A stretch of DNA of 40,378 nucleotides from Deltaproteobacteria bacterium. Lineage in GTDB: Bacteria; Desulfobacterota; WTBG01; CAIYCZ01; CAIRTM01. The notes beneath the pieces are model-generated. The model searched no databases. It was given only the letters and a program-made list of their open reading frames with translations, and was not told the origin of the DNA. This document shows, piece after piece, positions 843 through 21,994 of this stretch. Position numbers and translations under genes: made by a program. How positions within the stretch are numbered: position 1 is the first letter of the stretch; the number at the start of each line of letters is the position of its first letter. The DNA lies in contig JAJRXD010000075.1 of NCBI GenBank assembly GCA_024276465.1, positions 1-40,378 on the forward strand, in the 5' to 3' direction.

Positions 843-3101
843 TCATTGCACAGTGTAGTTTCCACCCAAGCTATAGCATTCGTATCCATTATAGGGAATC
901 CTGCCATCCAGTGGATACAGCATGATAGAATCTCCCGTACCGATTGGGTCAGGTGCACCCGCAAGAGGAAATGACTGGGTGGCTCCCACAGGAACCGTCC
1001 CATAGTTAACCGGAGAAGAAAAACCATCATCAGCACTAATACCCCACTTCAAGATACCGGAAGTGCTATCCATAATGAGTAATAAATTGACTTTTACATC
1101 AGGTTCCCACGTAATCATCCCGTTTTGATAGCTGATCTCGGGAAGACTGCTTGCGAAACAATATTCCAGCAGCAAGTCCATCTCAACCGTTTCAGCCGGA
1201 CACGTGGTAAAGCTTTTTTCAGCAAGGTAATAGAAAATAGCATCACCTTCTTCATAGATTCTAAAGGCGGAAAGCTTCAGAATTGTGGCATAGGGAGCTG
1301 AAACACTGAATTCACCGTTTTCATCACTGGTGACAGAAAAACTGCAAGAGGTCTGGGAACCGTCACATATTTCCATAAAAACCTCGGGGGCAAGTGTTTC
1401 GTCATAAGCCCATACCATAGTATTAGCGGCAGGGGATCCATCCTGAAGCACTTTGCCATCTATCTCACAGATAGAAACCTCAACTTCACTGTCCTGAGAA
1501 AGAGAAAGGTCTCCGGTATCCAGGCAGTTTGAAGGGCATGAACCAGATGTTTCAGGAACAACAGTTTCTTCATACCGGTAGAGTTTGCCCTGGTAGGAGG
1601 CAGTTATGATAACCTTTTGTGTCTCACCGGTAACACCGTCATTGTCAACATCCTCACCCGGACCTTCCGAGCGCATCACATCAACGCAGAACCGTCCGTT
1701 GCTGTCGGTTAACTGCGGTGTGGATGTCCCGGAATAGGTAACCCCCTTCAACGTAACGGTTGCGCCTGAAACAGGATTCCCTTCATCATCAATGACTCTT
1801 CCCTGAATACAGGCATGTGATTCAACAGGCCAGTCAACATTCCAGTATGAAAAGTGGGTCACGTCCGAAGCTGCGTAGATATCCCCTGAATAGGTTTTGT
1901 CCCGTATGTTTGTCAGATCGGCTTCGGAAATAATTTCACCGCTCGCGTCTTCAAGCCATCCGTTCAAAGGATCTGAGCCATCCCTTCCCTGTACCCACTC
2001 ACCAGTTTCCTCATCAAAATAATACATGGGAACATCAATCTGTCCATTCCCTGAAGTTACGTCTTCAATCACATTCCAGGTATCCCTGGGCATTTTCATT
2101 CGCACCCGTGCCGTATCGCTTTGACTGCCGGCCATGCTTGAGACTTTCCGTATTTTGTTCCCGGTACTGTCCTTGAGATCAAAAGCCGTAAAGACCCCTG
2201 AAATGAGCATGTTGCCCTGACTGTCCGAGAATGATCCGGGAAACTTATCAGCATCAGTTGCCGGATTGAAAATTTTCACCCGCCCCGAGGAAATCTCGAT
2301 TCCGCTTATTTCAACAGAGCCTGATTCGTTTTTCCAGAGTCCCGAGTCATCCTCACTGAGTGAGTCCATTTCAGAAAGTGTTCCGTCAAATCCTGTGACC
2401 TCGACCATAGTGTTTACCATAATAGTTCTCAGAAGTTTCGCGTAGCCGTCTTTTTCAAACGCTACCAGGGTGGTCAATCCTTTTTGAGCAGGAGCCATGA
2501 CACTGTAGCTGCCGTCATCTCCGGCTGTTGCTACTGCCTTTTCATTTTCTTCTATGGTGCCATTTCCGTTCAGGTCAGTAGTAACGAAAACACCGGCATC
2601 TCTGGCCGCGACAACCGATCCCTGGCCCTGTCCCGGCTTCAAATAAATGTTGCCTGATATGGAAAGCTGCTCCTCTCCGTCTGGAGGTTCTGTAACTTCA
2701 GCAGTAAAACCTAAATTGACTTCAACGCTTTGTCCCAGAAGGCCTATTCGTTTGCGCACCAGGGTTTCGGTTGTGGATTCGTAGCTATCACCAGCAGAGG
2801 CTTCGATCAGGTATTTACCCTTTTTTAAATCAGAAAACAGATACATCCCGTTTGCATCCGAGGCCGCTGTGCCGGCATCTTTTTTGAAAAACAGAAAAAC
2901 CTTCTTTAATGATATTTGTACGCCCTCAATGCCGAATTCACCTTCATCCATGGTGCCGTTTTTGTTTGCATCATTAAAACAATATCCGCTGATAGCCCCC
3001 GATATTAAAGCCACCTGTTCAGCAGCTGCAGGTACGGCGCACACAAAGAATATACACAGGAACATCAGAAAGTTAAAAATTGATGATATTTTTTCTCTCA
3101 T
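843..3101 (-). CDS. Secreted multidomain SdrD B-like / carboxypeptidase-regulatory-like protein
   Basis: A 752-residue exported protein with no enzyme motif I can see. Residues 1-27 form a Sec signal peptide ending in a VPAAA-type cleavage site. Residues ~35-135 resemble an SdrD B-like domain, with the calcium-loop style string NDANKNGTMDEGE followed by GIEGVQISL. A second acidic loop (DLNGNGTIEENE) sits near residue 180. A region around 250-425 contains YYFDEETGEWVQG, and a carboxypeptidase-regulatory-like domain starts near 428 (DDEGNPVSGATVTLKG). Paired cysteines in the C-terminal half suggest periplasmic or extracellular disulfides. The start has a strong GGAGGGAG ribosome site. It is the only large gene between the two inverted repeats and carries its own terminator. 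A role as a surface or structural protein is an inference. Confidence 0.8.
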   Translation of the reverse strand: MREKISSIFNFLMFLCIFFVCAVPAAAEQVALISGAISGYCFNDANKNGTMDEGEFGIEGVQISLKKVFLFFKKDAGTAASDANGMYLFSDLKKGKYLIEASAGDSYESTTETLVRKRIGLLGQSVEVNLGFTAEVTEPPDGEEQLSISGNIYLKPGQGQGSVVAARDAGVFVTTDLNGNGTIEENEKAVATAGDDGSYSVMAPAQKGLTTLVAFEKDGYAKLLRTIMVNTMVEVTGFDGTLSEMDSLSEDDSGLWKNESGSVEISGIEISSGRVKIFNPATDADKFPGSFSDSQGNMLISGVFTAFDLKDSTGNKIRKVSSMAGSQSDTARVRMKMPRDTWNVIEDVTSGNGQIDVPMYYFDEETGEWVQGRDGSDPLNGWLEDASGEIISEADLTNIRDKTYSGDIYAASDVTHFSYWNVDWPVESHACIQGRVIDDEGNPVSGATVTLKGVTYSGTSTPQLTDSNGRFCVDVMRSEGPGEDVDNDGVTGETQKVIITASYQGKLYRYEETVVPETSGSCPSNCLDTGDLSLSQDSEVEVSICEIDGKVLQDGSPAANTMVWAYDETLAPEVFMEICDGSQTSCSFSVTSDENGEFSVSAPYATILKLSAFRIYEEGDAIFYYLAEKSFTTCPAETVEMDLLLEYCFASSLPEISYQNGMITWEPDVKVNLLLIMDSTSGILKWGISADDGFSSPVNYGTVPVGATQSFPLAGAPDPIGTGDSIMLYPLDGRIPYNGYECYSLGGNYTVQ

Positions 3102-6335: not shown

Positions 6336-7730
6336 TCAGAGATTATCAAAATTTTGACCAGTATAGACAGGATGCAAATTATGATGTGGCAGGGTGAATC
6401 GTACTGTCGTACCACCCCCTGGATCAGACTCAATCTCAATTGACCCATTGTGAGCCTTTATGATGTGGAGTGAGAGGGTAAGTCCAAGACCAACACCACC
6501 TGTTGATCGCGAACGGCTGCGATCAGTTCGATAGAAAGGCTTGAAAACGTTCTCTTTTTCTCCATCGGCTATGCCCATTCCCTGGTCACTAACCTCCATA
6601 TACAGCTTTGGCCCATCATCTCGGGCATGTACAGTAATGGTGCTTCCATCCGGTGAATACTTTCTGGCATTGTCGATGAGATTATCCAGCACACGTCGCA
6701 GAAGAACCTGATCTGCCATGACAGCATGCAATTCACCATCAATCAAAACCTTAAGATGATGAGTGGGATATGACGCACGAAACCGATCAGCAGCTTTATT
6801 TAACAATTTTTTCACATCTGTTTGTTCCATCCGAAGCAGCAACCCAATGTATTTATTCTGGCCGGCAGAAAGATCAAGTCGTGAGGCCATTATAACATCT
6901 TCTACAAGTCGCTCTAACTCTTTAATATCCTCCAGGATGCCTGCAAACTCCTGTTTAAGCATTTCAGGGTCTCTTTCCATTGCGATATCAAGCGCAACCT
7001 GCATGCGTGAAAGTGGTGTTCGAAACTCGTGTGAAACATTTGCCAGCAACTCTTTTTGTGAGCGGATGAGATAAGTCAGACGACCGGCCATTTCATCAAA
7101 TGCTTTTGCAAAATGTCCCAGCTCATCTTGACGATGAATGCCTGTTCTGATATCAAAATTTCCCTGTCCAAATGCCTGTGCTGTTGCAGAAAGCCTGGCG
7201 ATTGGCTTTGCAAGCGATCGGGCAAACAGAATCGAAAACACAGCTATACATATTAAGATCACCCCGGATACTACTAACAGGTGAAACCCAAATGGAGAGG
7301 GCGGAAATGGGAACAAACCATAGGCTATGATATTGTTATTATCAATAATACCCATAACAACTGTCGGAGGAAAATCACCACGAATAAAAATCTTATCATG
7401 AAACAGATCCCTTTTTTCATCCATATTCAATGGAGGCGGGGGATGAGTCATGCTGGCAGCAATCAGATTATTATCAAGATCATAGAGCGCAAGTTCCTGT
7501 TTAAGAATATCCTTTAGCCTCTGTACTTCTATATGCAGTGCTTCCCTGTCGTTCATTATTTCTGCAAACCGGCATGTGATATAGCGTGCCACATAGCGTT
7601 GAGGCAGTGGAGTCGTAAAAGGGAGAACAATTACAAAGACTAAAAAGCTGAAAACAATAAGTGCAATACTGAAAATATAGAGCCGCACAACAAGTCGTCT
7701 CGGCCACAATGAAAAACGCAAGCCCCTCAT
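6336..7730 (-). CDS. Membrane sensor histidine kinase (CpxA/EnvZ class)
   Basis: A 464-residue two-component kinase. Two membrane helices (about 15-37 and 148-169) flank a ~110-residue periplasmic sensor domain. A HAMP linker follows (~170-222), then the dimerisation helix with the phospho-accepting His in NVSHEFRTPLSR (~235). The ATPase domain shows an N box (NLIDNARKY), a G1 box (DQGMGIAD) and a G2 box (GGVGLGLTLS). The gene follows its response regulator by two bases, so they form one operon. The stimulus is unknown. The CpxA-like layout suggests envelope sensing, and the polyphosphate/CotH operon just upstream is a possible but unproven target. Confidence 0.93.
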   Translation of the reverse strand: MRGLRFSLWPRRLVVRLYIFSIALIVFSFLVFVIVLPFTTPLPQRYVARYITCRFAEIMNDREALHIEVQRLKDILKQELALYDLDNNLIAASMTHPPPPLNMDEKRDLFHDKIFIRGDFPPTVVMGIIDNNNIIAYGLFPFPPSPFGFHLLVVSGVILICIAVFSILFARSLAKPIARLSATAQAFGQGNFDIRTGIHRQDELGHFAKAFDEMAGRLTYLIRSQKELLANVSHEFRTPLSRMQVALDIAMERDPEMLKQEFAGILEDIKELERLVEDVIMASRLDLSAGQNKYIGLLLRMEQTDVKKLLNKAADRFRASYPTHHLKVLIDGELHAVMADQVLLRRVLDNLIDNARKYSPDGSTITVHARDDGPKLYMEVSDQGMGIADGEKENVFKPFYRTDRSRSRSTGGVGLGLTLSLHIIKAHNGSIEIESDPGGGTTVRFTLPHHNLHPVYTGQNFDNL

Positions 7731-7732
7731 TT

Positions 7733-8458
7733 TTACTTATTATCCTCACAGGTAAACATGTAGCCCCATCCTCGGACTGTTTTGATAAGGCCGGGCTGTT
7801 TTGGGTTATCACTTAGTTTTTGCCTCAGCCTGGAAATATGCACATCAATCGAACGATCAAATGACTCGTCTGCATTCCCCTTTGCAAGCTCAAGCAGTTG
7901 ATCACGGCTGAGTACGCGGCCAGCCCTTTCGGCAAGCACCCTGAGCAGTTCAAACTCGTATGCTGTAAGATTAAGCTCCCGCCCGTCTAAGGTTGCACGG
8001 AGGCTGTCCGGTTCTATTTTGAGTCCGGCAATATGTACAGTTTGTTTTGCAGGCCCGCTTTTTCCACGTGCCCGCCTGACAGATGTATTGATACGTGCTA
8101 AGAGTTCACGGGAAGAGAATGGTTTTGTTACATAATCATCGGCACCAAGCTCAAGGCCCATAACCACATCTGCTTCCTCATCACGTGCAGTTAACATAAT
8201 AACCGGGACATCTGAATGCTTTCGTATTTGACGGCAGACTTCTAATCCGTCAAGTCCTGGAAGCATAAGATCAAGAAGCACAACATCATAGCGAAAACAC
8301 TGGGCATCTGAAAGTCCCTGCAACCCGTCGGAAGCTATGGTGACAATCAAACCATGCTTTTTGAGATACCGGGTTGTGAGATCGGCAAGTTTTTGATCAT
8401 CTTCGATCAGCAAAACAGTAATTACGGAACTGTCGCTGGTTACATTTGAATCTGACAT
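7733..8458 (-). CDS. OmpR/PhoB-family response regulator
   Basis: A 241-residue regulator. The receiver domain has the acidic pair at Asp20-21, the phospho-acceptor Asp63 in LLDLMLPGLDG, and Lys112 in TKPFSS. The C-terminal winged-helix DNA-binding domain is typical of OmpR/PhoB, with SFDRSIDVHISRLRQKL as recognition region and a C-terminal RGWGYMF hairpin. It comes first in an operon with the sensor kinase. The residues needed for phosphorylation are intact. Confidence 0.95.
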   Translation of the reverse strand: MSDSNVTSDSSVITVLLIEDDQKLADLTTRYLKKHGLIVTIASDGLQGLSDAQCFRYDVVLLDLMLPGLDGLEVCRQIRKHSDVPVIMLTARDEEADVVMGLELGADDYVTKPFSSRELLARINTSVRRARGKSGPAKQTVHIAGLKIEPDSLRATLDGRELNLTAYEFELLRVLAERAGRVLSRDQLLELAKGNADESFDRSIDVHISRLRQKLSDNPKQPGLIKTVRGWGYMFTCEDNK

Positions 8459-8592: not shown

Positions 8593-9417
8593 TTATATCT
8601 GAATTAAATGTCCTGCCAAAGCAAGTTGCCTGCATGATGAATCACAGGAATAAAGATTCAATACATTCATAATGCCTGTTACATATTTGGAAAAGCTTCT
8701 CCTGCGAAGCTCAAAATACCTGATAAGATCAATCATCCATAAAGGCACAACTGTAGTATAACACTTAAGTTCCAGTACCACATTACACCCCGGATCAAAC
8801 AGGGTTTCATTATCAAGGGGAACCATTCTGTTTTCATCAGGAATAAGGGTATACCCCTCTGTCGCCTGGTATCTCAACCCAACATCAAAGGTGATCCTGG
8901 CGTAATCATCAATGTCCGAAACATATGCCTTGCGCATGTATTGTGTAAGCACCCTCGGCATTGCATTATAAGAATATGCCATCCTGAGAAACAGGTATTT
9001 ATTTGAAGCCCCCTTATTGTTTTGTCCTTTGTTGCAGAGGTAGCCTGGAATTTCAAACACTCTGTGCCAGTTTTCATCATAAACACAGGCCCTGAATTTT
9101 TTGACTATGTTGACATTTTTCTGCTTGATCTCAAAAAAACAGGGCTGTACAGAGCTGTCACTGTACGTGCGTATCCGCATGTTAAACCTGTTCACACTCC
9201 CGTCTATCCTTCTCATAAGGAACAGATAGTTCGGTGTATCAAAATAGAGGTTGTTTACCCGGTAAAAGCTGTCCCCGGTTCCCGCAGAATATTCATCAAG
9301 ACTACAGTACACTGACGCAAAATCAGATATGGGTCCAATCATGGATTCAGGTATAACAAACTTTGACTCATATCGTTCAAGTACTGGGGGTAATTCTTTC
9401 TGACTCCTGCGTATCAT
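8593..9417 (-). CDS. VTC-domain polyphosphate polymerase
   Basis: A 274-residue protein of the VTC family, whose yeast member Vtc4 makes polyphosphate from ATP inside a TTM-like tunnel. The tunnel residues can be followed in order: YESKF near the N-terminus, NLYFDTPNY, the Arg pair in FNMRIRTY (~80), FFEIKQKN (~97), MRKAYVS, RITFDVGLRY, and late VVLELKCYTT with RRRSFSKYVTG. Acidic and basic positions expected for metal and phosphate binding are all present. There is no signal peptide or membrane segment, so it is probably cytoplasmic. The start overlaps the upstream TolC-like gene by four bases. It is the last gene of the five-gene CotH/DUF4956/adaptor/TolC/VTC operon. Confidence 0.92.
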   Translation of the reverse strand: MIRRSQKELPPVLERYESKFVIPESMIGPISDFASVYCSLDEYSAGTGDSFYRVNNLYFDTPNYLFLMRRIDGSVNRFNMRIRTYSDSSVQPCFFEIKQKNVNIVKKFRACVYDENWHRVFEIPGYLCNKGQNNKGASNKYLFLRMAYSYNAMPRVLTQYMRKAYVSDIDDYARITFDVGLRYQATEGYTLIPDENRMVPLDNETLFDPGCNVVLELKCYTTVVPLWMIDLIRYFELRRRSFSKYVTGIMNVLNLYSCDSSCRQLALAGHLIQI

Positions 9418-10715
9418 GTTTTAACCTCCTCCATGCCAACAGAAATGTAATTTTTCAGCGGTCTTTCAGATAATTTTCCCGTAACATCAAGCAGTTCAAT
9501 ATATTTTGTATATATTTCATATCGTATCTTTCCAAGCAGAATATCTCTTTTCAACAGCTTTTCCTTTATCTTCAGCAGGACCATCGGATCAATTCCTTCG
9601 ACCCTCATATATGTTTTCAGAGCTGATTCAGCAATACCTTCCCTGTTTTTTCCCATCAACACCCCATACTGCCTTACCAGATTTTCCAGGTTACTGGAAA
9701 TCATCTTGAAATTTTCTGCCAGCATCCTTTTTAAGACCTCATACCTGCTTTTTGCAGTTAAAAACTGCAGCTTCATCCGGTTAATTTCAATCCTGCCCGA
9801 ATTGATAAAAGGCAGGGAGATGGCCAGTCCAACACTATATGCCTCCGTTGCATCATGCCTTTTGTTATTATTATAAGATACTTCCAGATATCTGACATAT
9901 TTTCTGTTTTCTGATTTTTCCAGCTCATACCTGTTTTTTGCAAGCTCCAGCCTGCTGCTGCTCTGTTTTAAATAAATATTGTTTTCAACCGTGGAAAAAC
10001 CTGTCTGCCAAATGGTTTCCCGGATAAAATCAATATCAGTCAGATTGTCTGTATCAAACTCAACTGCACCTTCTACAGGCACATACTGCCGGATTTTGTC
10101 TTCAATCCTGCGAATACTGTTTTCCATATCCATCACCTTAATCTGCGCTTCCATATGGCTGTCCTCAGCCATAAGGAGGTTATTGACATCAAAATCAAGC
10201 TTGTTTTTTCTGCTCTTTAGCACAGTTACCCTGTCCCCGTAGACCTTTTTTAATTTCCTTTGCAATGCCAGCATGTTTCTTGTGTGCAAAAAATCAATGA
10301 GCAACACATACCGCCTCTTTAATGCCTGATGGAAAAGCAGGTCACGCTTTGTACGGGTAGATTGCAGGGTTGCATTGTACAGCTTTTTGGCGTTTCCTGT
10401 TACGTTCCATCCGTTTGTGTAAAACCGTAGAGAATATTTCTGGCGGCTAAATTCAAACTGATCTGTCTGGGTCCTCAGTTCAATCCTGTCAAAAAACGGA
10501 GTATTTGAAGACGAAGAATACAGGAAATCCATCTTTTCATTCTGAGGGTCTAAAACATAATCATTTTCTGAAGTCGCCAGAAAGTCACTTACACGAATTT
10601 CAGAAGCTTCCGGGCAGACAATGCAGATACACAAAAAGGCTGCTGCACATGTCAGAATGTTTACTATACGACAGGTTGAACATCTCTGCAGGCTTTGCGT
10701 CTTTACGAATAACAT
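9414..10715 (-). CDS. TolC-like outer-membrane protein
   Basis: A 433-residue exported protein with a signal segment at about 20-38. It is helical and coiled-coil-rich, with the repeat pattern of outer-membrane efflux proteins: a long helix pair in the middle (AKNRYELEKSENRKYVRYLE), then a beta-type segment YSVGLAISLPFINSGRIE at ~295-312, the most TolC-like motif (SLPxxxxGR). The following helix (RMKLQFLTAKSRYEVLKR) matches the second TolC repeat. It starts right after the stop of the adaptor gene and overlaps the VTC gene by four bases. I infer that it forms the outer-membrane channel for the HlyD-like adaptor encoded next door. Sequence similarity to typical TolC is weak. Confidence 0.75.
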   Translation of the reverse strand: MLFVKTQSLQRCSTCRIVNILTCAAAFLCICIVCPEASEIRVSDFLATSENDYVLDPQNEKMDFLYSSSSNTPFFDRIELRTQTDQFEFSRQKYSLRFYTNGWNVTGNAKKLYNATLQSTRTKRDLLFHQALKRRYVLLIDFLHTRNMLALQRKLKKVYGDRVTVLKSRKNKLDFDVNNLLMAEDSHMEAQIKVMDMENSIRRIEDKIRQYVPVEGAVEFDTDNLTDIDFIRETIWQTGFSTVENNIYLKQSSSRLELAKNRYELEKSENRKYVRYLEVSYNNNKRHDATEAYSVGLAISLPFINSGRIEINRMKLQFLTAKSRYEVLKRMLAENFKMISSNLENLVRQYGVLMGKNREGIAESALKTYMRVEGIDPMVLLKIKEKLLKRDILLGKIRYEIYTKYIELLDVTGKLSERPLKNYISVGMEEVKT

Positions 10716-12722
10716 TTACAAGTCTCTTAATTTCATGATTTTTGAGGGTTCTTTTGTCCCGTGATCAAAGGTCAGTAAGAACTCCTTTGTGTCGGGATTA
10801 AACGTAATACCTTCCGGCTTTAAGTCCTTGAGATGCAAGACAAGTGAAAGTCTGCTGTCTCCAGTATCATACACCCATAGATTGCCAAATTTTTTCTTTA
10901 CACCGTTCTTTTTTATCCTGGCATATGAGAGGATAAAAATTCTGTTTTCGTTCTTGTGAAAATACAAATCTGATATCCCTGTCGGAGCTCCGGTAGTTTT
11001 ATCCTTTAAATTAAGCACCTTCCACAGTTCCACATTACTTCCGTCCAGGACGTTTTCTTCAAATACCTTATCAATATCGGTAATCCTTAAAACAACTGTC
11101 TTGCCGTCCTTGAATGGTCTTTTAAATCCGAGATACAAGCCGGCTTTATGATAAAATATACCTTCGATGTTTATGACAATGCTGCCCTCTTCTGATGTGA
11201 CAAACCTGGCCCAGTCTGCATCCATATCTTTTTTTGCAGCTTTTTCAAGCAAATTATATAAATATACTTTCTTATCAAGCCTTAAAACAGTCCTGTCCCG
11301 TTTAAGACGGACTAACAGCCTTCTCTCCGTTGGAAGTACTCCATTCCTGTTATAACTTTGGGAGCAGACAATATAAATATTGCCTTCACAGTCCTGTGTT
11401 ATACCTTCCATATCATCAATCTTTTTCAATCCCCGGATAACAATTTCGTCCTCAATGTTTCCCTGCCCGTCCATTACATAAAGAACAGGCCTTCTGTTTT
11501 TTGTAGTATCACTGATGACAAGATATTTCCTTAAATCCCTGAGATAGATAACACCGGACGCTTCAATGCTTGTAATATCCTTCAGGACCCTGTTGACCTT
11601 GACATCAATTGTATCAGGGATACTATTTTTATCACCCCCGGTTCTTCCCATCTTTGTTATTGGTGGGAAATTTTCACCTGCCATGGCCACATCTGATTGT
11701 CCGGTTTCATCACACACTCTTACCAGGACCTTTTCTCCAAGCAGTAAGTTATTTTCTTCAGGGATTTTAATCTGCACCTCTCTGCCGTATACCTTAACCT
11801 CAAGCAGTCTTCGCATTCTTCTGGGATACTCAATGATCTTTGTCCCAACACCACAGACTTCTCCGATAACACTGTTGGCAGGATCTGCCAGTGAAATGAT
11901 CTTTACCTTCATGCCAGGGGATACTCTGGTGTACACAAACTCATGAATATATCCTCTGATATAGCTTGGTGATTTAGTATGAATAGTCAGGATCGTGTCA
12001 AAGGGTGATATTTGCTCACCTTCCCTGCATCTCACAGAGCCGATTATTCCAGACACCCGGGCAAAAATATAGAGCCTGTTTTTTTCATCAAGCAACAGAT
12101 TTAATTCCCGTTCCAGCTGCTCTATCTGAATACCTGCCGGATTTTCCAGGGTATTCAGTTCTCTTTCAAGCATATCGATTCTCATCTGAACCTGGTTTGC
12201 TGTCAGATCACGCTCCTTCTCAAGCCCTTCAATTTCTATCCTGATGGGATTGCTGATTTGTTCCTTTTTACCTTTTTCTGTGTCCTTCTCCAGACTTTCC
12301 AATGCAGCCGTGAATTCGCTGTTGATGATATACTGTGCCCGAAGCTGTTTTATACGGTAATTGATCCTGCTGGCTTGTGAAGCTTGCCTGGCTTTGAGCT
12401 CTTTTATCTGAGACCGTAACGCATCGGTCTGTACTATATCCTGTGCCTTGCGTTTTTCAAGCTCATGAGAGATCTCGTTAATGCATTTTGTCAATTCAGG
12501 ACTGTGAAGTTCAACAATAAGTTCCCCTTTTGTAACTGCCTGCCCGGGAACAACATGAATTTTTTTGATCTCAACTGCCTTTTCAGAACTTACAGTAATT
12601 TCTCTGGTCTCGGCAATACCGTAAAACTCCGCGAACTCCCCTCTGTATCTAAAGGTAATCAGTACCACTGTGACAGCAGTAACAACCCATGCAAGATAAA
12701 GCAGTTTTACATTTCTTTTCAT
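10716..12722 (-). CDS. HlyD-like membrane fusion protein with C-terminal propeller-like domain
   Basis: A 668-residue protein with an unusual fusion. One membrane helix (7-25) is followed by a biotinyl-lipoyl half-motif (VSSEKAVEIKKIHVVPGQAV), a long coiled-coil hairpin (~78-215), the second lipoyl half (IIGSVRCREGEQISPFDTI) and a beta-barrel region to ~345, as in HlyD/RND adaptors. From about residue 380 to the end, sequence of a different type appears, with recurring EGI/SDL blade-like starts: DDMEGITQDCEGNIYIV, INIEGIFYHKAG, GISDLYFHKNENRIFIL, PEGITFNPDTKEFLLTF. This looks like an SdiA-regulated or phytase-like beta-propeller. No ABC or RND pump is encoded nearby, so its inner-membrane partner may be the DUF4956 protein. 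That pairing is an inference. Confidence 0.8.
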   Translation of the reverse strand: MKRNVKLLYLAWVVTAVTVVLITFRYRGEFAEFYGIAETREITVSSEKAVEIKKIHVVPGQAVTKGELIVELHSPELTKCINEISHELEKRKAQDIVQTDALRSQIKELKARQASQASRINYRIKQLRAQYIINSEFTAALESLEKDTEKGKKEQISNPIRIEIEGLEKERDLTANQVQMRIDMLERELNTLENPAGIQIEQLERELNLLLDEKNRLYIFARVSGIIGSVRCREGEQISPFDTILTIHTKSPSYIRGYIHEFVYTRVSPGMKVKIISLADPANSVIGEVCGVGTKIIEYPRRMRRLLEVKVYGREVQIKIPEENNLLLGEKVLVRVCDETGQSDVAMAGENFPPITKMGRTGGDKNSIPDTIDVKVNRVLKDITSIEASGVIYLRDLRKYLVISDTTKNRRPVLYVMDGQGNIEDEIVIRGLKKIDDMEGITQDCEGNIYIVCSQSYNRNGVLPTERRLLVRLKRDRTVLRLDKKVYLYNLLEKAAKKDMDADWARFVTSEEGSIVINIEGIFYHKAGLYLGFKRPFKDGKTVVLRITDIDKVFEENVLDGSNVELWKVLNLKDKTTGAPTGISDLYFHKNENRIFILSYARIKKNGVKKKFGNLWVYDTGDSRLSLVLHLKDLKPEGITFNPDTKEFLLTFDHGTKEPSKIMKLRDL

Positions 12723-12786
12723 GATTATCCCTTAAATCATGTTTTATAGATTGATTAACAATAACCGGAAAAAGAGTTGCAAACAA

Positions 12787-13470
12787 TCACAGATCTATTG
12801 TTGTTTCCTGCAACAGAAGATTTACGCCTTTTACTGTCCTAACGTTTCTCAATTCTTCAATAAAATCATCGTTAGTCTTGTTTTTCCTGAGTTTTACATG
12901 ATATGCATAATCAAGGCGTTTTCCCTGGGCCATATCGCGAAGGGTAACAAGGGCAAATACATTGCAGTAATTATTAAGTACTTTTTCCAGCACACCCTTA
13001 CTCTCAGGATCATTCTCAATGTTAAACCGCAGCATACCGTCAAAACAGCTTGCCTGACCGAATGGAGAAAAATAAAGAAGAACAGCCACAGTGCAGAAAC
13101 CAAGAGTACCAACCACTGCAATAGTATAACCGTTAACACCACTGGCAATACCTGCAGCAAGGCCGGCAAACATAAAGATAATGTCTTTCGGGTCCCTTAG
13201 ATTTGTTCTGAACCGTATGATTGCCAATGCGCCCAACATGCCAAGGCCCCTTGCCAGGCTGTCTCCGATTGCCTGCATAACCGTTGCTGCAACAATGGAA
13301 CTCAAGACCAGCGCCTGAACATAGTTCCTCGAATATGACAGTCCTCTGAAAGTCTTTTCATATGTAATAGCAACCAAGGTTGAAAGTGCAAAAGAGAGAA
13401 TTACTGTATAAAATATTGTTATGAATGCAGGGTGCACAGAAGTTGTCTGTAATGTTAATGTATCCAGCAT
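12787..13470 (-). CDS. DUF4956 multi-spanning membrane protein
   Basis: A 227-residue inner-membrane protein with about four helices in the first 140 residues and a cytoplasmic ~85-residue C-terminal domain. The conserved core GMLGALAIIRFRTNLRDPKD (80-99) is characteristic of DUF4956, where a basic/acidic patch sits at the membrane surface after a Gly/Ala-rich helix. The C-terminal part (KLRKNKTNDDFIEELRNV) has an ACT-like or ferredoxin-like feel. DUF4956 genes are repeatedly found beside VTC polyphosphate polymerase and CotH genes in bacteria, as here. The function is unknown; transport or anchoring of polyphosphate is a guess from context. Confidence 0.88.
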   Translation of the reverse strand: MLDTLTLQTTSVHPAFITIFYTVILSFALSTLVAITYEKTFRGLSYSRNYVQALVLSSIVAATVMQAIGDSLARGLGMLGALAIIRFRTNLRDPKDIIFMFAGLAAGIASGVNGYTIAVVGTLGFCTVAVLLYFSPFGQASCFDGMLRFNIENDPESKGVLEKVLNNYCNVFALVTLRDMAQGKRLDYAYHVKLRKNKTNDDFIEELRNVRTVKGVNLLLQETTIDL

Positions 13471-13494
13471 TTCTATCCTCTTTTGATTATTATT

Positions 13495-15609
13495 TTAATA
13501 TTTAATTAATACAGTATGCGTGAACAGATCATAAACACTGTTTACATCCCCGGGTGTGCCCCCTGACACCTTGCTGGCCTTCCAGTTTTCATAAAATGAG
13601 TTAACATGCCCGGGGTGCTGTAATTCAAGTGATGCTCCGTTTCCATCAGCTTCAGATGGCCAGTAGCGTTTATCATCATATTTTACATAATCAACAATAA
13701 ACCCCTTAGAATCATTCAGCTGTAGGACTTCCCCTTTATTTGACAATTTTCCACTATCCCACTCAAAAAACTGAAACTGTTGGCTGTTAAAAGCATCAGC
13801 ATTTTTTGAAATGATTATATATTCGTTTGCGGCAATAACTGTATTTTGAGGAAAGGCAAATTCTACTGCTTTGCTAAAAGCATAACCTGACAGGTCTACG
13901 GCTTCACCTCCTGTATTCACAAGTTCAATAAACTCGTAATCCTCCCCCTGGGAAGAAGCGGGGTTGTAATGAATTTCATTTATAACAACAGGATATGGAA
14001 CAAACTGTTCATCCGTTAAAAATTGGCGGGCTACAGCATTACGCTGTGCAATATGTTCAAGGAGATATTCCAGTTCGCTGTAAAAATTATCCGGGGCACG
14101 CAGTGTGGTGTATCCAGGCTGCTCGCCTTCAGGTCCGACCACGTAACTTGCAATTAAGTCATGGGCGGACTGAAAGCGTTTCCATATCCTGTCGACATCC
14201 AAAACTCCTTCAATAACTTCGTTAACAAAAAAAAGGTAGCTATGCCGATATACAGGATCATCCATAAGGTATCGAATTAAAGGCCAGCTCTCATCCACCC
14301 CACTCAGGTCCATGGAGTGCGGTGCCATAAGTATAAAGAAGTCCTGTGACATGAATGCCATGTTGTTATCCCACGGAATCCAGTGCAGCAAACCATCATC
14401 CAGGTCTGAATACAGATAGTAGTTATGTGGCATGTTGCCATAAGTATCCCAGTTTTGGATTACGGTATTTACTGCCAGCCATAAGAGAAATCCATTAACG
14501 CTAAAGGCTTTTTCAAGACCTGAGCGCCATAGGATTGGATCGCTGCGGTCAGCATGCAAGGCATAAAATGCAGCAGTTATATCGCTCCAGTCCTCCTCTG
14601 ATTTATTTGTTCTTTTTTCAAAGGAGTCTTCATCAAATTCAACCCATTTTGCCCCCGGGCCTTCAGGTTTGTAAAGATTGCCACCTTTGGATCTGAATTG
14701 AGTGGCAAGCATTGGCTCATCAGGCACTTCGGTCATGGTGTAGAGGCCAAAGTAAATTGGGCCCTTTCCATAGTCAATAAACAATCGATAGAAAGCGGTC
14801 TGAGATGCGGGCACTCCAGCCTCACGAAAGACATCAGCACCTATTTTTTCCCGCAGCATAGAACTGTCAAACGCATTGTTGCTCAAAGCAAGTTCCTTAA
14901 ATCCAAAAAATCTTTGATTTTTAATTTCAGGATAATCATCTTCAAATTTATCAAAATCAAAACGTAAAGGCAGTTTCATGCTTCCGTCTTCCCATGTTTT
15001 CTTCAACGTAGAATTGCCTTTGAAACGCACACCCACATGCCACCATGTTTTATCTTCAAAAACAAAGGAGCAGGGACGATAAACAGGGTCGCGCTCTATC
15101 ATCTTTCCAAATGGAATTTCTTCTTCCTCAGTTCCATTCTGGATATCACCCGGAATTTCTCCATCAACAGGCACGTCCTGCATGTTATCCGGGTTGCAGA
15201 ATAATTGGCCCCCATTAATCGGGATTAAAAAACAGCTACCCTCGATATCCTGGCCGTAAATATTTGCCTGGCAGAGGGCACCTTCCTGTAAACCATCACA
15301 CGCCTCTATCAGTTCCTCTGGCGGCCCCTCGGAGGGCATTGTATCGTCTTGTCCGAACTTGCCACACAGCTCTGTCATGTCATCAAGCATATATTTCCAG
15401 TCCCGTGGCTTAATTATAAGATCAATTCTCTCAACTATATTCTGTGCAAAAACAACATCGTAATTTGACTCAGCCTTATCACCGTGTGTCTCATCTGTCC
15501 AGCCTGCAGGCCGATCAGAATCATCTGAAAAGTCTATATTGCAGCCAACAGTCATTATGACAGCAATAAAACAGAGTATAAAAAAACAGTTTTTATCCTG
15601 ACAAAGCAT
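13495..15609 (-). CDS. CotH-family kinase-like lipoprotein with C-terminal lamin-tail domain
   Basis: A 704-residue lipoprotein when started at the ATG 15609, which has a GAGGAGG ribosome site; a longer start at 15669 lacks one. The signal peptide ends in lipobox TVGC (Cys23). A Cys-rich insert at about 75-155 comes next. The CotH-like core includes GVRFKGNSTLKKTW, the SNNAFDSSMLREKIG helix, YGLYTMTEVP-type strands and the catalytic-site region LLHWIPWDNNMAF, where CotH kinases carry an Asp for metal. The last ~150 residues are a lamin-tail domain (VINEIHYNPASSQGEDYEFI, then ELVNTGGEAVDLSGY). CotH phosphorylates spore-coat proteins in Bacillus; in Gram-negatives substrates are unknown. It is the first gene of the operon with DUF4956, adaptor, TolC-like and VTC genes. 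Confidence 0.88.
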   Translation of the reverse strand: MLCQDKNCFFILCFIAVIMTVGCNIDFSDDSDRPAGWTDETHGDKAESNYDVVFAQNIVERIDLIIKPRDWKYMLDDMTELCGKFGQDDTMPSEGPPEELIEACDGLQEGALCQANIYGQDIEGSCFLIPINGGQLFCNPDNMQDVPVDGEIPGDIQNGTEEEEIPFGKMIERDPVYRPCSFVFEDKTWWHVGVRFKGNSTLKKTWEDGSMKLPLRFDFDKFEDDYPEIKNQRFFGFKELALSNNAFDSSMLREKIGADVFREAGVPASQTAFYRLFIDYGKGPIYFGLYTMTEVPDEPMLATQFRSKGGNLYKPEGPGAKWVEFDEDSFEKRTNKSEEDWSDITAAFYALHADRSDPILWRSGLEKAFSVNGFLLWLAVNTVIQNWDTYGNMPHNYYLYSDLDDGLLHWIPWDNNMAFMSQDFFILMAPHSMDLSGVDESWPLIRYLMDDPVYRHSYLFFVNEVIEGVLDVDRIWKRFQSAHDLIASYVVGPEGEQPGYTTLRAPDNFYSELEYLLEHIAQRNAVARQFLTDEQFVPYPVVINEIHYNPASSQGEDYEFIELVNTGGEAVDLSGYAFSKAVEFAFPQNTVIAANEYIIISKNADAFNSQQFQFFEWDSGKLSNKGEVLQLNDSKGFIVDYVKYDDKRYWPSEADGNGASLELQHPGHVNSFYENWKASKVSGGTPGDVNSVYDLFTHTVLIKY

Positions 15610-17128: not shown

Positions 17129-18304
17129 TCAGCGGGGCTGCAATGTCCGGGCTAAAAGCTCATCATAGAGCTTTTCCTGATCTGAAACCATTTTATGTAT
17201 ATCAAACTCCTTAACCAGTCCAGTACCTTTTTCTCCCATCTCACGAGCTTTTTCAGGATTAGTCAGAAGAAAAGCTGTTTTTTTTGCAATCCCTGATATA
17301 TCTCCGGGGGAAACAAGAAACCCGTTAAGACCATCTCTGACTGCTTCAGACGAGCCATCCACATCAGTAGCTACTATGGGAACACCTGCTGCCATTGCCT
17401 GAGGAAGCACCCTGGGCAACCCCTCCCAGAAAGAGGTAAGCACAAGAACATTAATTGTGCTGAGAATTTCCGGTATATCCCTTCGCCACCCTAAAACATG
17501 AAAGCTGTCCTGCAGATCAGCTCTGCTGACCTGCCTTTCAATATCCGGCCTTAAGGTTCCATCGCCCACAAGAAGAAAGTGACAACTCGGCACATCCTTT
17601 TTGACAAGACAGCAGGCCCTTACATAGTCAAGGGGCGCTTTCTGGGGTTTCAGGCATGAAATCATTGCAGCAACAGGAACATCTTCAGGGATCTTCAGAC
17701 CCTGTCTCACGTCATGCCTTGTTTTTTCATGGTTCCGGAATTTTGCAATCTCTATCCCGCTTCGAATAAGCTTAATTTTTTTGCGTGGAAAAATACAAAG
17801 CTTTACCCCTTTTTCCATGTTTGCCCATGAGACAGCTATAAACATTGTGGTAATAAAAGATGTGATCAGCTCTGAGATAATAAGGCTGCTTCTGAGCCAA
17901 AAGGGCTGACAATTATTAAATCCAAAGCCGTGGATAGAATGTACAATAATAGAAACGCCTGATGCCTTTGCAGCCCACCTGCCAAGTATACCGGCTTTTG
18001 AACTGTGGGTATGAACAATTACCGGCGTATTTTGAGGCTTGATATTTTTTATCTGTTTCAGAATTTTAATAATCTGAAACAAAGCCTTCAAATCTTTAAT
18101 TGGTCTTATTTCACGTATTAAATCCTGTATTATAAAAGTATTGTTCAGTGCCTTTGCATCCTCATAAAGCTCTCCCCCCTTACCCGTAACAAGAAAGGTC
18201 TGGAATTTTTCAGTGTTTAGATTGGAAACAGTAAAAAGTGTGTTCTGCTGTGCTCCTCCAAGCTCCATCCTGGTTATGAGATGAACCACTTTTACCTTTT
18301 TCAT
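17129..18304 (-). CDS. Family 4 (GT-B) glycosyltransferase
   Basis: A 391-residue glycosyltransferase. The N-terminal acceptor domain begins VVHLITRMELGGAQQNT, with the GGA loop typical of GT4 enzymes. The donor-binding domain includes KPQKAPLDYVRA, FLLVGDGTLRPDIE and the E-x7-E motif in FWEGLPRVLPQAMAAGVPIV, followed by a GSSEAVRDGLNGFLV loop. It would add a sugar from a nucleotide-sugar donor to a lipid-linked or polysaccharide acceptor on the cytoplasmic side. The gene overlaps the flavoprotein gene upstream by four bases, forming a three-gene operon with the WecA/MraY-type enzyme. The sugar is not predictable. Confidence 0.92.
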   Translation of the reverse strand: MKKVKVVHLITRMELGGAQQNTLFTVSNLNTEKFQTFLVTGKGGELYEDAKALNNTFIIQDLIREIRPIKDLKALFQIIKILKQIKNIKPQNTPVIVHTHSSKAGILGRWAAKASGVSIIVHSIHGFGFNNCQPFWLRSSLIISELITSFITTMFIAVSWANMEKGVKLCIFPRKKIKLIRSGIEIAKFRNHEKTRHDVRQGLKIPEDVPVAAMISCLKPQKAPLDYVRACCLVKKDVPSCHFLLVGDGTLRPDIERQVSRADLQDSFHVLGWRRDIPEILSTINVLVLTSFWEGLPRVLPQAMAAGVPIVATDVDGSSEAVRDGLNGFLVSPGDISGIAKKTAFLLTNPEKAREMGEKGTGLVKEFDIHKMVSDQEKLYDELLARTLQPR

Positions 18305-19581
18305 TTAAGAGCCCTTGCGATCTGCCTGCCCTGAATAATGGAATCTTCCATGGAGGAGTATGTCCAGCCGCCATACCTGCCAGCTGAAATAATATGTTTT
18401 TTTTGAAGAAATTTAATAATTTCCAAAAGCATTTTTTTGTGGAATTTGTCAAAAATTACATACGCATACTCTATGGTATTATAATCTTTTACAAGAATAC
18501 GGTCCCGCTTTTTTAATATCCCGCATTTTTTCAATGCTTCTATGGATGTTTTTGTAACAGTTTCAGGATCTTTCATGCTTCCGGGCGAAGAAGAAACTTC
18601 TATATACATGGAGCTTGTCTTTTCAGGGGCAAGAAACTTTGAAAAATTAGAATAGATACCAACCCTGTAAAAAGGAAATTCAGGTTCAGGGAAATATATC
18701 CAGTGGAAGTCGCTTACATTTTCCCTGTTAATTCCAATGTTCAGGTTGTGAACCGATACATACCGAAGTCTGGAAACAGCCCTTTTATATGAAGATGGCA
18801 GATCCTCGATCAGTTTAAGAAGCCGTGGAAGTGGTATTGTTGAGACCAGTGTGTCATACTGTGCCTCATGGCCATCCTTAAATTTAATACATTTTTTTGA
18901 CAGGCTGACAGAAGCAAGTATTTTGCCGTATTGAATATTGCCAACCTTCCGGCTCATGGCATGGGGAAGTATTTCAATACCGCTCTTCTCAGGATAATAA
19001 AAAGAGGCATTGTAGCCCATCCCTCTGTTTTGAATGCCTATGGAGCCCTGGATTACCTCCTGCAATGTGGGGCGCGGGATTGACCAGCTTGCCCAGTCGT
19101 TTGTAAGCTCCCTTAAGTCTGTCTGCCAGAGTTTTTCATTGTAGGGAATGAAAAAATGTCTGGCAATTCCTTCACCAAATGTGCTGACAGCCCAGTCTTT
19201 GAAGTTTAAGCCTGTCTTTCTGCTGCTTTTTTTCATATACGCATCAACAAAACCCATCACGCAATCAAAGACAACTTCTTTTGGAAGCCCGAAAGTATTT
19301 GCCTGAAAAGGATATGCAACATATCTGCCCTTATAGTAAATTGCAGCTTTTCTGATGATTTTTACAAATTTTCCAGGAGCAATACTGCTTAAAAGCCGGT
19401 GCGTATAAGGGTTTTTAACATGAAGGAGGTGGCCGGTATAGTCAAAGGTAAAACCATCAGTTTTTATTGAACGGCACAGGCCTCCCGGTTTTTCTTCTTT
19501 TTCAAAAATCAGATAAGGTCTTTTCCTGAGATGAAAGCCAACACTCAGGCCTGTCAGTCCTGAACCTATTATGCAAATCAT
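18301..19581 (-). CDS. FAD-dependent amine oxidase / UDP-galactopyranose mutase-like protein
   Basis: A 426-residue flavoprotein. The N-terminal Rossmann motif IIGSGLTGLSVGFHL and the FEKEEKPGGLCRS segment bind FAD. TFDYTGHLLHV, PYNEKLWQTDL and a C-terminal SAGRYGGWTYSSMEDSI (FAD ribityl contact) match the group of NAD(P)-binding amine oxidase-like proteins and UDP-galactopyranose mutases found in surface polysaccharide clusters. It overlaps both neighbours by four bases, between the phosphoglycosyl transferase and the GT4. A role in sugar-nucleotide or lipid-linked sugar redox/isomerisation is inferred from context; protoporphyrinogen oxidase-like activity is less likely here. Confidence 0.85.
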   Translation of the reverse strand: MICIIGSGLTGLSVGFHLRKRPYLIFEKEEKPGGLCRSIKTDGFTFDYTGHLLHVKNPYTHRLLSSIAPGKFVKIIRKAAIYYKGRYVAYPFQANTFGLPKEVVFDCVMGFVDAYMKKSSRKTGLNFKDWAVSTFGEGIARHFFIPYNEKLWQTDLRELTNDWASWSIPRPTLQEVIQGSIGIQNRGMGYNASFYYPEKSGIEILPHAMSRKVGNIQYGKILASVSLSKKCIKFKDGHEAQYDTLVSTIPLPRLLKLIEDLPSSYKRAVSRLRYVSVHNLNIGINRENVSDFHWIYFPEPEFPFYRVGIYSNFSKFLAPEKTSSMYIEVSSSPGSMKDPETVTKTSIEALKKCGILKKRDRILVKDYNTIEYAYVIFDKFHKKMLLEIIKFLQKKHIISAGRYGGWTYSSMEDSIIQGRQIARALK

Positions 19582-20576
19582 AATGTCATATCAACCTTTT
19601 TCAGATAAAACCCCATCACAAGAGCAAAAACAATAATACAGAAAACTGTCCCTGCTGCAATGATGACTGAGGGGGTCAGCATCATCGCAATCCCGCACAG
19701 CCCTAACAGAATGCTTGCCGCATAGCTGACAAGCACTGTCTGTTTTGTTGAAAACCGCCATTTCCTGAGCCTTAAAGCAAAATGATCCGGGCTGCCGTAA
19801 ATAACAGGTATTCCCCTTCTCCACCTGATATACATGACAAACAGAGTGTCAAACATCGGAATTCCCAAAATGACCGGCGGGGCCAGGCACCCAAAATTGT
19901 TATTATCAGTATAGCTTCCCACCATTGCCAGCGCTCCAAGCATCATCCCTATAAACATGCTGCCAGCATCACCAAGATAAATACTTGCGGGCTCAAAGTT
20001 ATACTTCAGAAATCCAAGCAGGGAGCCTGCAATAGAGATTGTAAGTATTGCAATCACAGGGCGGCCATTCAGAACAGCTACCACAAAAAGCACAGAAGCA
20101 ATAATAAGCCCTGTACCGGTCGTAAGACCATCCATGACGTCAATAATATTAAATGCATTGATTGTGGCCATCATCCAGAAGAATGTTAAAAACAGACAGA
20201 CAGAATAAGGCAAAAAAACAATCTTGATATAAATGCCGGATTTCATAAGCACGAATACAGCAATGGCCTGACCAGCAAACTTGAACCGGGGTCCCAGGGC
20301 CTTAAGATCATCTATTATTCCAAGCAGAATAATAATGGTTCCGGAAAGCAGCAGTCCTAACACCTCGCTGCTGAAATCAAAAGTAAGGGCAAGTGAAAAA
20401 AGAAAGGCAATGTAAACAGAAAGACCGCCCAGGTATGCAACAGGCTTTTCATGTTTTTTCAGTTTCCCGTCAGGATGGTCAACAATATCATATTCAATTG
20501 CAGCTTTCCTGACTACAGGTGTTATGTACAGGCACAGGCTAAGTGCTAACACGAATGTAAAAAGATAGATCCACAT
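19578..20576 (-). CDS. WecA/MraY-family polyprenyl-phosphate sugar-1-phosphate transferase
   Basis: A 332-residue membrane protein with about ten helices. Family motifs appear in order: GGLSVYIAF, the Asp pair in GIIDDLKALG, NAFNIIDVMDGLTTG with the catalytic Asp, YLGDAGSMFIG, and the cytoplasmic basic loop RWRRGIPVIYGSPDHFALRL corresponding to the WecA His-rich region. It should transfer a sugar-1-phosphate from a UDP-sugar to undecaprenyl phosphate and so start the glycan made by the following genes. It is the first gene of the three-gene operon ending at 17129. Confidence 0.93.
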   Translation of the reverse strand: MWIYLFTFVLALSLCLYITPVVRKAAIEYDIVDHPDGKLKKHEKPVAYLGGLSVYIAFLFSLALTFDFSSEVLGLLLSGTIIILLGIIDDLKALGPRFKFAGQAIAVFVLMKSGIYIKIVFLPYSVCLFLTFFWMMATINAFNIIDVMDGLTTGTGLIIASVLFVVAVLNGRPVIAILTISIAGSLLGFLKYNFEPASIYLGDAGSMFIGMMLGALAMVGSYTDNNNFGCLAPPVILGIPMFDTLFVMYIRWRRGIPVIYGSPDHFALRLRKWRFSTKQTVLVSYAASILLGLCGIAMMLTPSVIIAAGTVFCIIVFALVMGFYLKKVDMTL

Positions 20577-20639
20577 TTATGTTAATTCCACTAAAGTTTC
20601 ATGAGTTTATTGAGTTGCGGGTTTCGGGTTGCATGTTAA

Positions 20640-20852
20640 GAATTTCAAAATCCAAAGGAAATAATGTCAAAGTTCAAAATCCAAATGTCAAATGAAGTTC
20701 AAAAACAATAATGTCAAAAACTTCGCGTTATTTTGTGGCTATAAGAATACTTTTGTCTTTTGACATTGATTTGAACTTTTGGCTTTTTAATTTGTCATTG
20801 CTTTTGCTTTTTGACATTCCTTTGAGCTTTGGCATTTGTCATTTCCTTTGAA
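20640..20852. repeat. Degenerate AAAGTTCAAAATCC-type repeat, inverted
   Basis: The left half (about 20646-20722) repeats short units such as CAAAATCCAAA, GTCAAAGTTCAAA and ATGTCAAA. The right half (about 20752-20850) repeats their complements: TTTGACATT, TTTGAACTTT, TTTGTCATT. The region is therefore an imperfect large palindrome built of short tandem-like units. Such TCAAAATTC-type tracts are scattered in intergenic space of several environmental Gram-negatives. It lies between two minus-strand glycan genes and has no coding capacity. Confidence 0.6.
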
Positions 20853-20875
20853 AACCTTTGTGCATAGTACTGATT

Positions 20876-21994
20876 TTAGTCACTTTTTTCCATCATAATG
20901 AGGCTTCGATAAACAGCCTCTGTTTCTTTAACTGTTTTTTCCAGGGGAAACTGTTCAAGCACGCGCTTTTTCCCGGCCATTCCCATCTCCTCTGCCAACT
21001 GCCGGTCTTCTATCAATCTAAGAAGAGCTTGTGCCAGTGCGCGTGCGTCTCCAGGTTTAAAAAGAATTCCTGTTTTCCCGTCAAGAACAACTTCATCAAT
21101 ACCTTCAATTCTTGATGCGACTACAGGACGCGCTTCAGCCATTGCTTCAAGAAGCACATTCGGGAGGCCCTCCCAGAGTGAAGGCAGAACTATTATATCC
21201 ATCTGTGCAATGCACCGGGATATCTCCTCTGTCACTCCCACAAAAATTATATATTCAGAGAGTCTTTCCTGCTTAACAATAGTTTTAATGCGGATTTCAT
21301 CCGGCCCTTCTCCAAAAAAATATACCCTGATATCAGGATGCCTGGCTGAAATGGTTTTGACAGCTTTAATTAAAGTAACATGCCCCTTTTGCCTGTCAAA
21401 CCTTCCGATAAGCGCAATATTTATTAATGCTTTATTAATTGTAAAACCATTTGAATTTCCCTGCAGCACTGCACTGCAGTCAATGCCGTTATATACAGTA
21501 ACAATTTTATCAGGACAGACCCGCACATGCTTTATGGTAAATTTTCTTGCAGCTTCTGAAACAGCCATGTACCTGTTTACCATTGAAGATGTCAGTCGGT
21601 CAATAATATGTTTGTAGTGTTTATCAGACTCTATAACACGTATTGATGAGATTACAATTGGAACCCCGGCTACCCGAGCGGCAAATCTGCCAAGGATATT
21701 TGCTCTGAAAAGAAATGAGTGAATTATCATGGGCCTCACCCGGCGTGATAGCCGGATTAAACGAACAAGGGCCGGAAGAAATGTTAAAACAGCTTTTATT
21801 CCGCCTGCTTCAGCCAAGCCCAGAGAATAGAAACCATCCGCTGCTTCTTCAATCCTTTTTGCAAAAACCCCCGGTCTTTTCAAGGAACAGACATAAACTT
21901 CATATTCATCCCTGTCAATCCTTCGTATAAGCTCAAGAAGCGCCTTTTCTGTTCCACCCGCATTGGTGCTTGTAATAATATAGAGGATTTTCAT
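20876..21994 (-). CDS. Family 4 glycosyltransferase
   Basis: A 372-residue GT-B enzyme. It starts ILYIITSTNAGGTEKALLEL with the GGTE acceptor loop. The donor domain shows IALIGRFDRQKGHVTLI, VYFFGEGPDEIRI and the E-x7-E motif in LWEGLPNVLLEAMAEARPVV, then GIDEVVLDGKTGILF. It is similar in type to the enzyme at 17129-18304 but clearly a different gene. It is separated from the WecA-type gene by a 300-base repeat tract, so it may be transcribed separately. The acceptor and sugar are unknown. Confidence 0.92.
   Translation of the reverse strand: MKILYIITSTNAGGTEKALLELIRRIDRDEYEVYVCSLKRPGVFAKRIEEAADGFYSLGLAEAGGIKAVLTFLPALVRLIRLSRRVRPMIIHSFLFRANILGRFAARVAGVPIVISSIRVIESDKHYKHIIDRLTSSMVNRYMAVSEAARKFTIKHVRVCPDKIVTVYNGIDCSAVLQGNSNGFTINKALINIALIGRFDRQKGHVTLIKAVKTISARHPDIRVYFFGEGPDEIRIKTIVKQERLSEYIIFVGVTEEISRCIAQMDIIVLPSLWEGLPNVLLEAMAEARPVVASRIEGIDEVVLDGKTGILFKPGDARALAQALLRLIEDRQLAEEMGMAGKKRVLEQFPLEKTVKETEAVYRSLIMMEKSD

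Follow-up and report, generated by a model that had tools for sequence, protein, structure and literature searches.

We suggest that five adjacent genes in the window, the whole stretch of about 40 kb analyzed here, encode a tripartite envelope assembly that lacks a pump and is dedicated to a VTC-type polymerase; we put the probability of this reading at about 0.42. The coupling of the VTC/DUF4956/CotH module to a HlyD-type adaptor and a TolC-like protein is itself real, conserved, and not peculiar to the window genome, and adaptor-coupled VTC-DUF4956 operons were found in eight genomes of the phylum.

Organization of the operon and its flanks

All five genes lie on the minus strand, from 15609 to 8593, in the order CotH, DUF4956, HlyD-type adaptor, TolC-like protein, and VTC, with intergenic gaps of 24, 64, 0, and −4 (Table 1; coordinates and strands refer to the window). 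A re-check of the ORFs returned exactly the genes, positions, and gaps given in an earlier note on this DNA. That note had also seen no ABC, RND, or MFS pump, and none was recognized among the proteins annotated across the 40 kb. Four of the operon proteins score above their curated Pfam cut-offs, and the TolC-like protein falls slightly below.

Table 1. Features of the operon and its surroundings in the window
Feature	Position	Strand	Evidence or remark
Histidine kinase	6336-7730	-	same strand and position
OmpR-type response regulator	7733-8458	-	same strand and position
VTC (TTM-fold) polyphosphate polymerase domain protein, without membrane domain	8593-9417	-	Pfam 1.6e-36
TolC-like outer membrane factor (OEP family, divergent)	9414-10715	-	OEP 20.6 bits vs cut-off 22
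HlyD-type periplasmic adaptor fused to propeller-like domain	10716-12722	-	HlyD_D23 1.8e-11, HlyD_3 2.4e-7
DUF4956 membrane protein, helical membrane region then ACT-like domain	12787-13470	-	Pfam 2.9e-11
CotH-type secreted kinase-fold protein with Lamin Tail Domain	13495-15609 (ATG)	-	Pfam CotH 1.7e-60, LTD 3.7e-18
Lipoprotein-like ORF, 386 aa	15898-17058		upstream of operon, between it and glycan cluster
Glycan-synthesis cluster including glycosyltransferase genes	17129-21994		upstream of operon

The two-component system that the earlier note placed upstream of the operon is in fact downstream of it; the response regulator/histidine kinase pair begins 134 bp beyond VTC and is a possible regulator of the operon. 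Comparable OmpR-type pairs adjoin VTC-DUF4956 in records from Paenibacillus, Acetoanaerobium, and Enterococcus (L070, L086, and L087), and a two-component pair lies a few genes from the Hymenobacter locus described below; in the related genome G091, the pair is not adjacent to the operon. The lipoprotein-like ORF matches nothing in Pfam or NCBIfam and has no counterpart at related loci. Near the operon, positions 843-3101 encode a large secreted protein, possibly a surface protein, in which SdrD_B and carboxypeptidase-regulatory-like domains were recognized. No Rfam family was matched in the window, and scans of it for promoters and terminators gave nothing above chance.

The VTC and CotH proteins

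The VTC domain (PF09359) scores 126.5 bits against a cut-off of 23 and covers positions 2-232 of the 235 in the profile, and the VTC family profile matches the yeast Vtc4 structures with an E value of 1.3e-27. The protein keeps the catalytic residues R81, R83, E216, S243, and K244, including the terminal SK, and R81, R83, E216, and K244 are invariant across 14 VTC homologues. R81, R83, and E216 are the equivalents of R264, R266, and E426 of yeast Vtc4, which have been mutated to inactivate the enzyme (PMC9911596). Homology and these conserved residues suggest that the protein makes polyphosphate from ATP. In yeast, the VTC complex couples the synthesis of polyphosphate in the cytosol to its translocation, which takes place through a channel with a basic lining (PMC9911596). 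The operon resembles the yeast complex (Vtc1/Vtc3/Vtc4) in having a VTC/TTM polymerase domain with the same catalytic residues and a separate membrane part that is proposed to carry the chain. Unlike the yeast complex, the bacterial VTC has neither an SPX nor a membrane domain, and an outer-membrane extension is added in the operon. The idea that VTC substitutes for PPK1 was rejected, because PPK1 is absent from 10 of the 12 VTC genomes but also from 353 of the 395 genomes overall (Fisher P = 0.37).

The CotH domain scores 205.6 bits against a cut-off of 23.8. Its protein begins with a putative lipoprotein signal (..VIMTVGC) and is probably lipidated. It matches the structure of CotH from B. 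cereus (5jd9) with an E value of 5.3e-11, and its motifs QNWD (D388) and IPWD (D414) align with QNFD and IPWD of that protein; we take the two aligned aspartates to be catalytic in B. subtilis CotH. The protein is predicted to be kinase-like and keeps these catalytic-site residues. It shares with the spore-coat kinases of B. subtilis and B. cereus the kinase fold and both aligned catalytic-site aspartates, but it differs from them in being secreted, in carrying a Lamin Tail Domain, and in having no spore context known here. At four related loci (L049, L107, L108, and L110, from G328, G471, G474, and G467), a large secreted Lamin Tail Domain protein of about 850 aa is divergently encoded beside VTC-DUF4956-adaptor; no CotH domain was detectable in these proteins.

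The DUF4956 protein

The structure of the DUF4956 protein, predicted from an alignment of the window sequence and sequences from genomes of the same phylum only, has a mean pLDDT of 66 and consists of helices followed by an alpha/beta domain. The best PDB matches of this domain are ACT domains, at marginal E values, and the model, at its moderate confidence, shows no channel. The similarity to MgtC/SapB is weak (14.1 bits against a cut-off of 31.4 in Pfam, and 16 against 214 in NCBIfam); the layout of a membrane part and an ACT-like domain is shared, but all the scores are below the cut-offs, and DUF4956 is a distinct family. No sequence relation to Vtc1 was found in the searches run. Two arginines, R86 and R88, are invariant in 23 of 23 homologues.

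DUF4956 might instead be a regulator that forms no path itself, its ACT-like domain and MgtC-like membrane part making VTC and the export pair responsive to a metabolite. The ACT-like C-terminal domain of the model and the sub-threshold resemblance to MgtC are in keeping with such a role, and the authors of a study on Streptococcus intermedius describe an MgtC-like, ACT-containing protein (PMC12345266). However, the strongest conservation of DUF4956, that of R86 and R88, lies in the membrane part and not in the ACT-like domain, and the operon encodes no other inner-membrane transporter that would complete a tripartite assembly. We regard a purely regulatory role as improbable and lean toward DUF4956 being the functional inner-membrane partner of the adaptor/TolC-like pair.

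The adaptor and the TolC-like protein

The adaptor is composed of two parts. Residues 1-335 are HlyD-type with an N-terminal hydrophobic anchor, HlyD_D23 and HlyD_3 both being over their Pfam cut-offs, and the profile matches EmrA/MdtN/CusB with an E value of 9.6e-8. The part from about 335 to 668, which the earlier note did not mention, resembles a beta-propeller (SdiA-regulated, 3.5e-4, slightly below its cut-off). The same adaptor/propeller fusion is present in G465, with 24% identity over 652 aa. In a pattern-limited scan (n = 84,980), the adaptor subfamily of the window was found elsewhere only in G091 and G056.

The TolC-like protein is more divergent. By profile comparison, it resembles TolC/CusC/MdtP weakly and locally (E 0.0018, probability 15%), and its AlphaFold model, built from three sequences, had a pLDDT of 41.8 and was set aside. 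Its homologues in the operons of G091 and G056 match OEP better (best E 3.4e-8), and the counterparts in G465 and G467 match OEP clearly (1.3e-14 and 4e-36). A profile of the subfamily scored 769-888 bits in the operons of the window, G091, and G056 only, that is, in 3 of the 395 genomes, and the next best match had 23 bits. Plasmid searches with the adaptor and TolC-like proteins of the window gave no matches.

Recurrence within the phylum

Among 395 genomes of the phylum, VTC is present in 12 and DUF4956 is over its cut-off in 8, all of which belong to the 12 (P = 3.6e-14), although these counts are not phylogenetically independent and the adaptor-linked cases form one clade. In every DUF4956 genome, at most a few kilobases separate the VTC gene from the DUF4956 gene. 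Further loci came from a search of 148 genomes of the class of G328. The earlier note had proposed counting how often adaptor and TolC-like genes accompany such loci, and had held that a pair unlinked in relatives would speak against the coupling. The adaptor is present in 8 of the 17 VTC-DUF4956 loci examined, and a TolC-like gene in 5 of these 8 (5 of the 17); the relatives thus bear the linkage out.

The adaptor-coupled operons of the window, G091, G056, G465, G467, G328, G471, and G474 differ in gene order. In G091, the order is HlyD-OEP-VTC-CotH-DUF4956, all in one direction, with identities to the window proteins of 44, 39, 52, 29, and 71%, respectively; G056 has this order as far as the end of its contig, which comes before DUF4956. 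G465 has CotH-VTC-DUF4956-adaptor/propeller fusion-OEP in one direction, and G467 has VTC-DUF4956-adaptor-OEP with an adjacent CotH gene on the other strand. G328, G471, and G474 have VTC-DUF4956-adaptor. The remaining 9 of the 17 loci, including the near-copies G482 and G483, have no adaptor, and most of them have CotH. The adaptor is thus not required for the function of the VTC-DUF4956 core pair. In the DUF4956 tree, the phylum's seven adaptor-linked sequences group together as one clade (96/96), and a sub-clade within it (100/99) unites the window with G091 and G465; each of these three has a TolC-like gene.

In G261 (L052, 5903-10406), the genes after VTC-DUF4956 encode a predicted beta-barrel of the outer membrane and a Cthe_2159 carbohydrate-binding protein; the barrel is perhaps an alternative outer-membrane exit. 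Low-scoring DUF4956 matches in G476, G485, G488, G489, and G461, from the class of G328, were left uncounted, the fetched regions having no VTC match.

Loci outside the phylum

One phylum was searched in depth, and other phyla were sampled through plasmids. A plasmid of Hymenobacter volaticus, from the Bacteroidota, carries three consecutive genes, which encode a hypothetical protein of 359 aa, DUF4956, and a protein annotated as TolC family (L066, NZ_CP095062.1, 6754-9994), with no VTC, CotH, or pump gene adjacent. We read the 359-aa protein as an adaptor from its sequence; its NCBIfam HlyD match (E 6.3e-6) is far below the curated cut-off, and its alignment with the other adaptors by hhalign was not significant. 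Should this reading hold, the link of DUF4956 would be to the adaptor/TolC pair itself and not to VTC alone. In pSymA of Sinorhizobium meliloti (L085, 7290-9660), DUF4956 directly follows the gene of a secreted, by our reading caspase-like, protein, with neither VTC nor adaptor. DUF4956 therefore need not be a polyphosphate channel, since it stands without VTC nearby in Hymenobacter and without VTC or adaptor in Sinorhizobium. A scan of viral contigs gave one VTC-DUF4956 locus, without adaptor (IMGVR_UViG_3300010163_000107; L084, 7197-8552); the pair is flanked there by phage-like genes and a MutS-like ORF, and its contig is classified as viral.

The adaptor and the TolC-like protein could also serve an ordinary pump encoded elsewhere and share the operon for co-expression only; there is precedent in outer-membrane factors, E. 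coli TolC among them, whose partner pumps are encoded at other loci. BLAST with single E. coli pump sequences found no pump gene beside the nine adaptor-DUF4956 loci, and hence no sign of the dedicated pump partner elsewhere that the earlier note had named as evidence against its proposal; this check is poor at excluding MFS pumps, because the known MFS protein of a control locus escaped it, and to that extent it leaves room for an unlinked pump. Against such a pump, strong matches to the TolC-like subfamily are confined to these operons among the 395 genomes, the gene linked to the adaptor, in the eight genomes as well as in Hymenobacter, is DUF4956 and not a pump, and the adaptor-linked DUF4956 proteins have a clade of their own. 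We give this explanation little chance.

Relation to known systems

HlyD-family adaptors and OEP-family factors are encoded together in tripartite systems such as AcrAB-TolC, MacAB-TolC, EmrAB-TolC, and CusCBA, as they are here. Unlike these systems, the operon has DUF4956 and VTC in the place of an RND, ABC, or MFS pump, and its adaptor is fused to a propeller-like domain. We do not class it as a member of the tripartite efflux or secretion systems, because no energized pump was recognized in or near it, a check that is weak for MFS.

The other known setting of the module is the Gram-positive Pel locus. In streptococci, clostridia, and bifidobacteria, Pel operons are adjoined by genes for CotH, a poly-phosphate polymerase (that is, VTC), and DUF4956 (PMC7112168). 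The earlier note's statement that the three cluster without an assigned function needs updating, since mutants of S. intermedius in the cotH-like and DUF4956-like genes have altered Pel levels and aggregation (PMC12345266). The operon has the same three families in one cluster, but here the adaptor and TolC-like genes separate them, PelG is lacking, and the host is Gram-negative. According to the S. intermedius authors, the three genes are arranged in this way at Pel loci only (PMC12345266). This is contradicted by the VTC genomes of the phylum, which lack PelG, and by plasmid loci: VTC-DUF4956, in several cases with CotH, occurs on plasmids of Planococcus, Pseudobutyrivibrio, Enterococcus, and others, and no Pel gene is annotated nearby where annotation exists.

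This setting raises the possibility of an exopolysaccharide role, in which the module would modify a glycan or help to secrete it: VTC, DUF4956, and CotH would handle phosphate as accessory proteins, and the glycan produced by the adjacent glycosyltransferase genes would be exported or anchored by the adaptor and the TolC-like protein. Besides the association with Pel operons and the effect of two module genes on Pel levels, this role accords with the glycosyltransferase genes that adjoin the module in the window, Pseudobutyrivibrio, and Planococcus, with a PMT_2-type gene near the G467 locus, and with glycan-type genes at G219, by ORF reading. However, there is no contiguity with pelDEADAFG, and none of the 12 VTC genomes of the phylum, neither that of the window nor the 11 others, has PelG. 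Nor was a glycosyltransferase recognized beside the operons of G091, G056, and G465 in the stretches read, the ORFs of which are partly annotated. Gram-negative polysaccharide exporters, moreover, mostly use other outer-membrane proteins. We consider an exopolysaccharide role rather unlikely.

Proposed mechanism and significance

For the pump-less assembly dedicated to VTC, we propose the following route. VTC would make polyphosphate from ATP at the cytoplasmic face. DUF4956 would dock VTC and pass the growing chain across the inner membrane, a passage driven by polymerization as it is in yeast VTC, and the two invariant arginines of DUF4956 would accommodate the anionic polymer. The adaptor and the TolC-like protein would then extend the path across the periplasm and the outer membrane; their domains and linkage are observed, and the complex is inferred. 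In a last, speculative step, CotH would act where the product exits; it would either phosphorylate surface proteins or glycans, with polyphosphate as the donor, or anchor the product.

The recurrence in distant relatives suggests a dedicated route to the surface for polyphosphate or a product made with it. The parts of this proposal differ in strength. We name polyphosphate as the cargo only tentatively, and doubt that CotH uses the exported polyphosphate. Polyphosphate export via DUF4956 is plausible; what is carried, in which direction, and what CotH does are inferred. The conserved residues and the yeast VTC precedent fit the earlier note's suggestion of DUF4956 as an envelope channel and of polyphosphate export or phosphorylation at the surface. 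That the operon represents a new class of pump-less trans-envelope export machine, in which the polymerase pushes its own polymer through DUF4956 and the adaptor/TolC pair and a CotH-type kinase uses polyphosphate instead of ATP, is improbable as a whole.

We found no report in open-licence papers of an adaptor/TolC link to VTC, DUF4956, or CotH, and as far as searched, the coupling of the three-gene module to a pump-less path of the tripartite type is unreported. It gives the DUF4956 family a concrete candidate role, that of the inner-membrane partner of an adaptor/TolC pair, and makes the operon a complete candidate path for placing polyphosphate outside the cell, with a candidate donor for extracytoplasmic CotH-type kinases. 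If this is true, the tripartite architecture would be usable by a polymerase rather than a pump.
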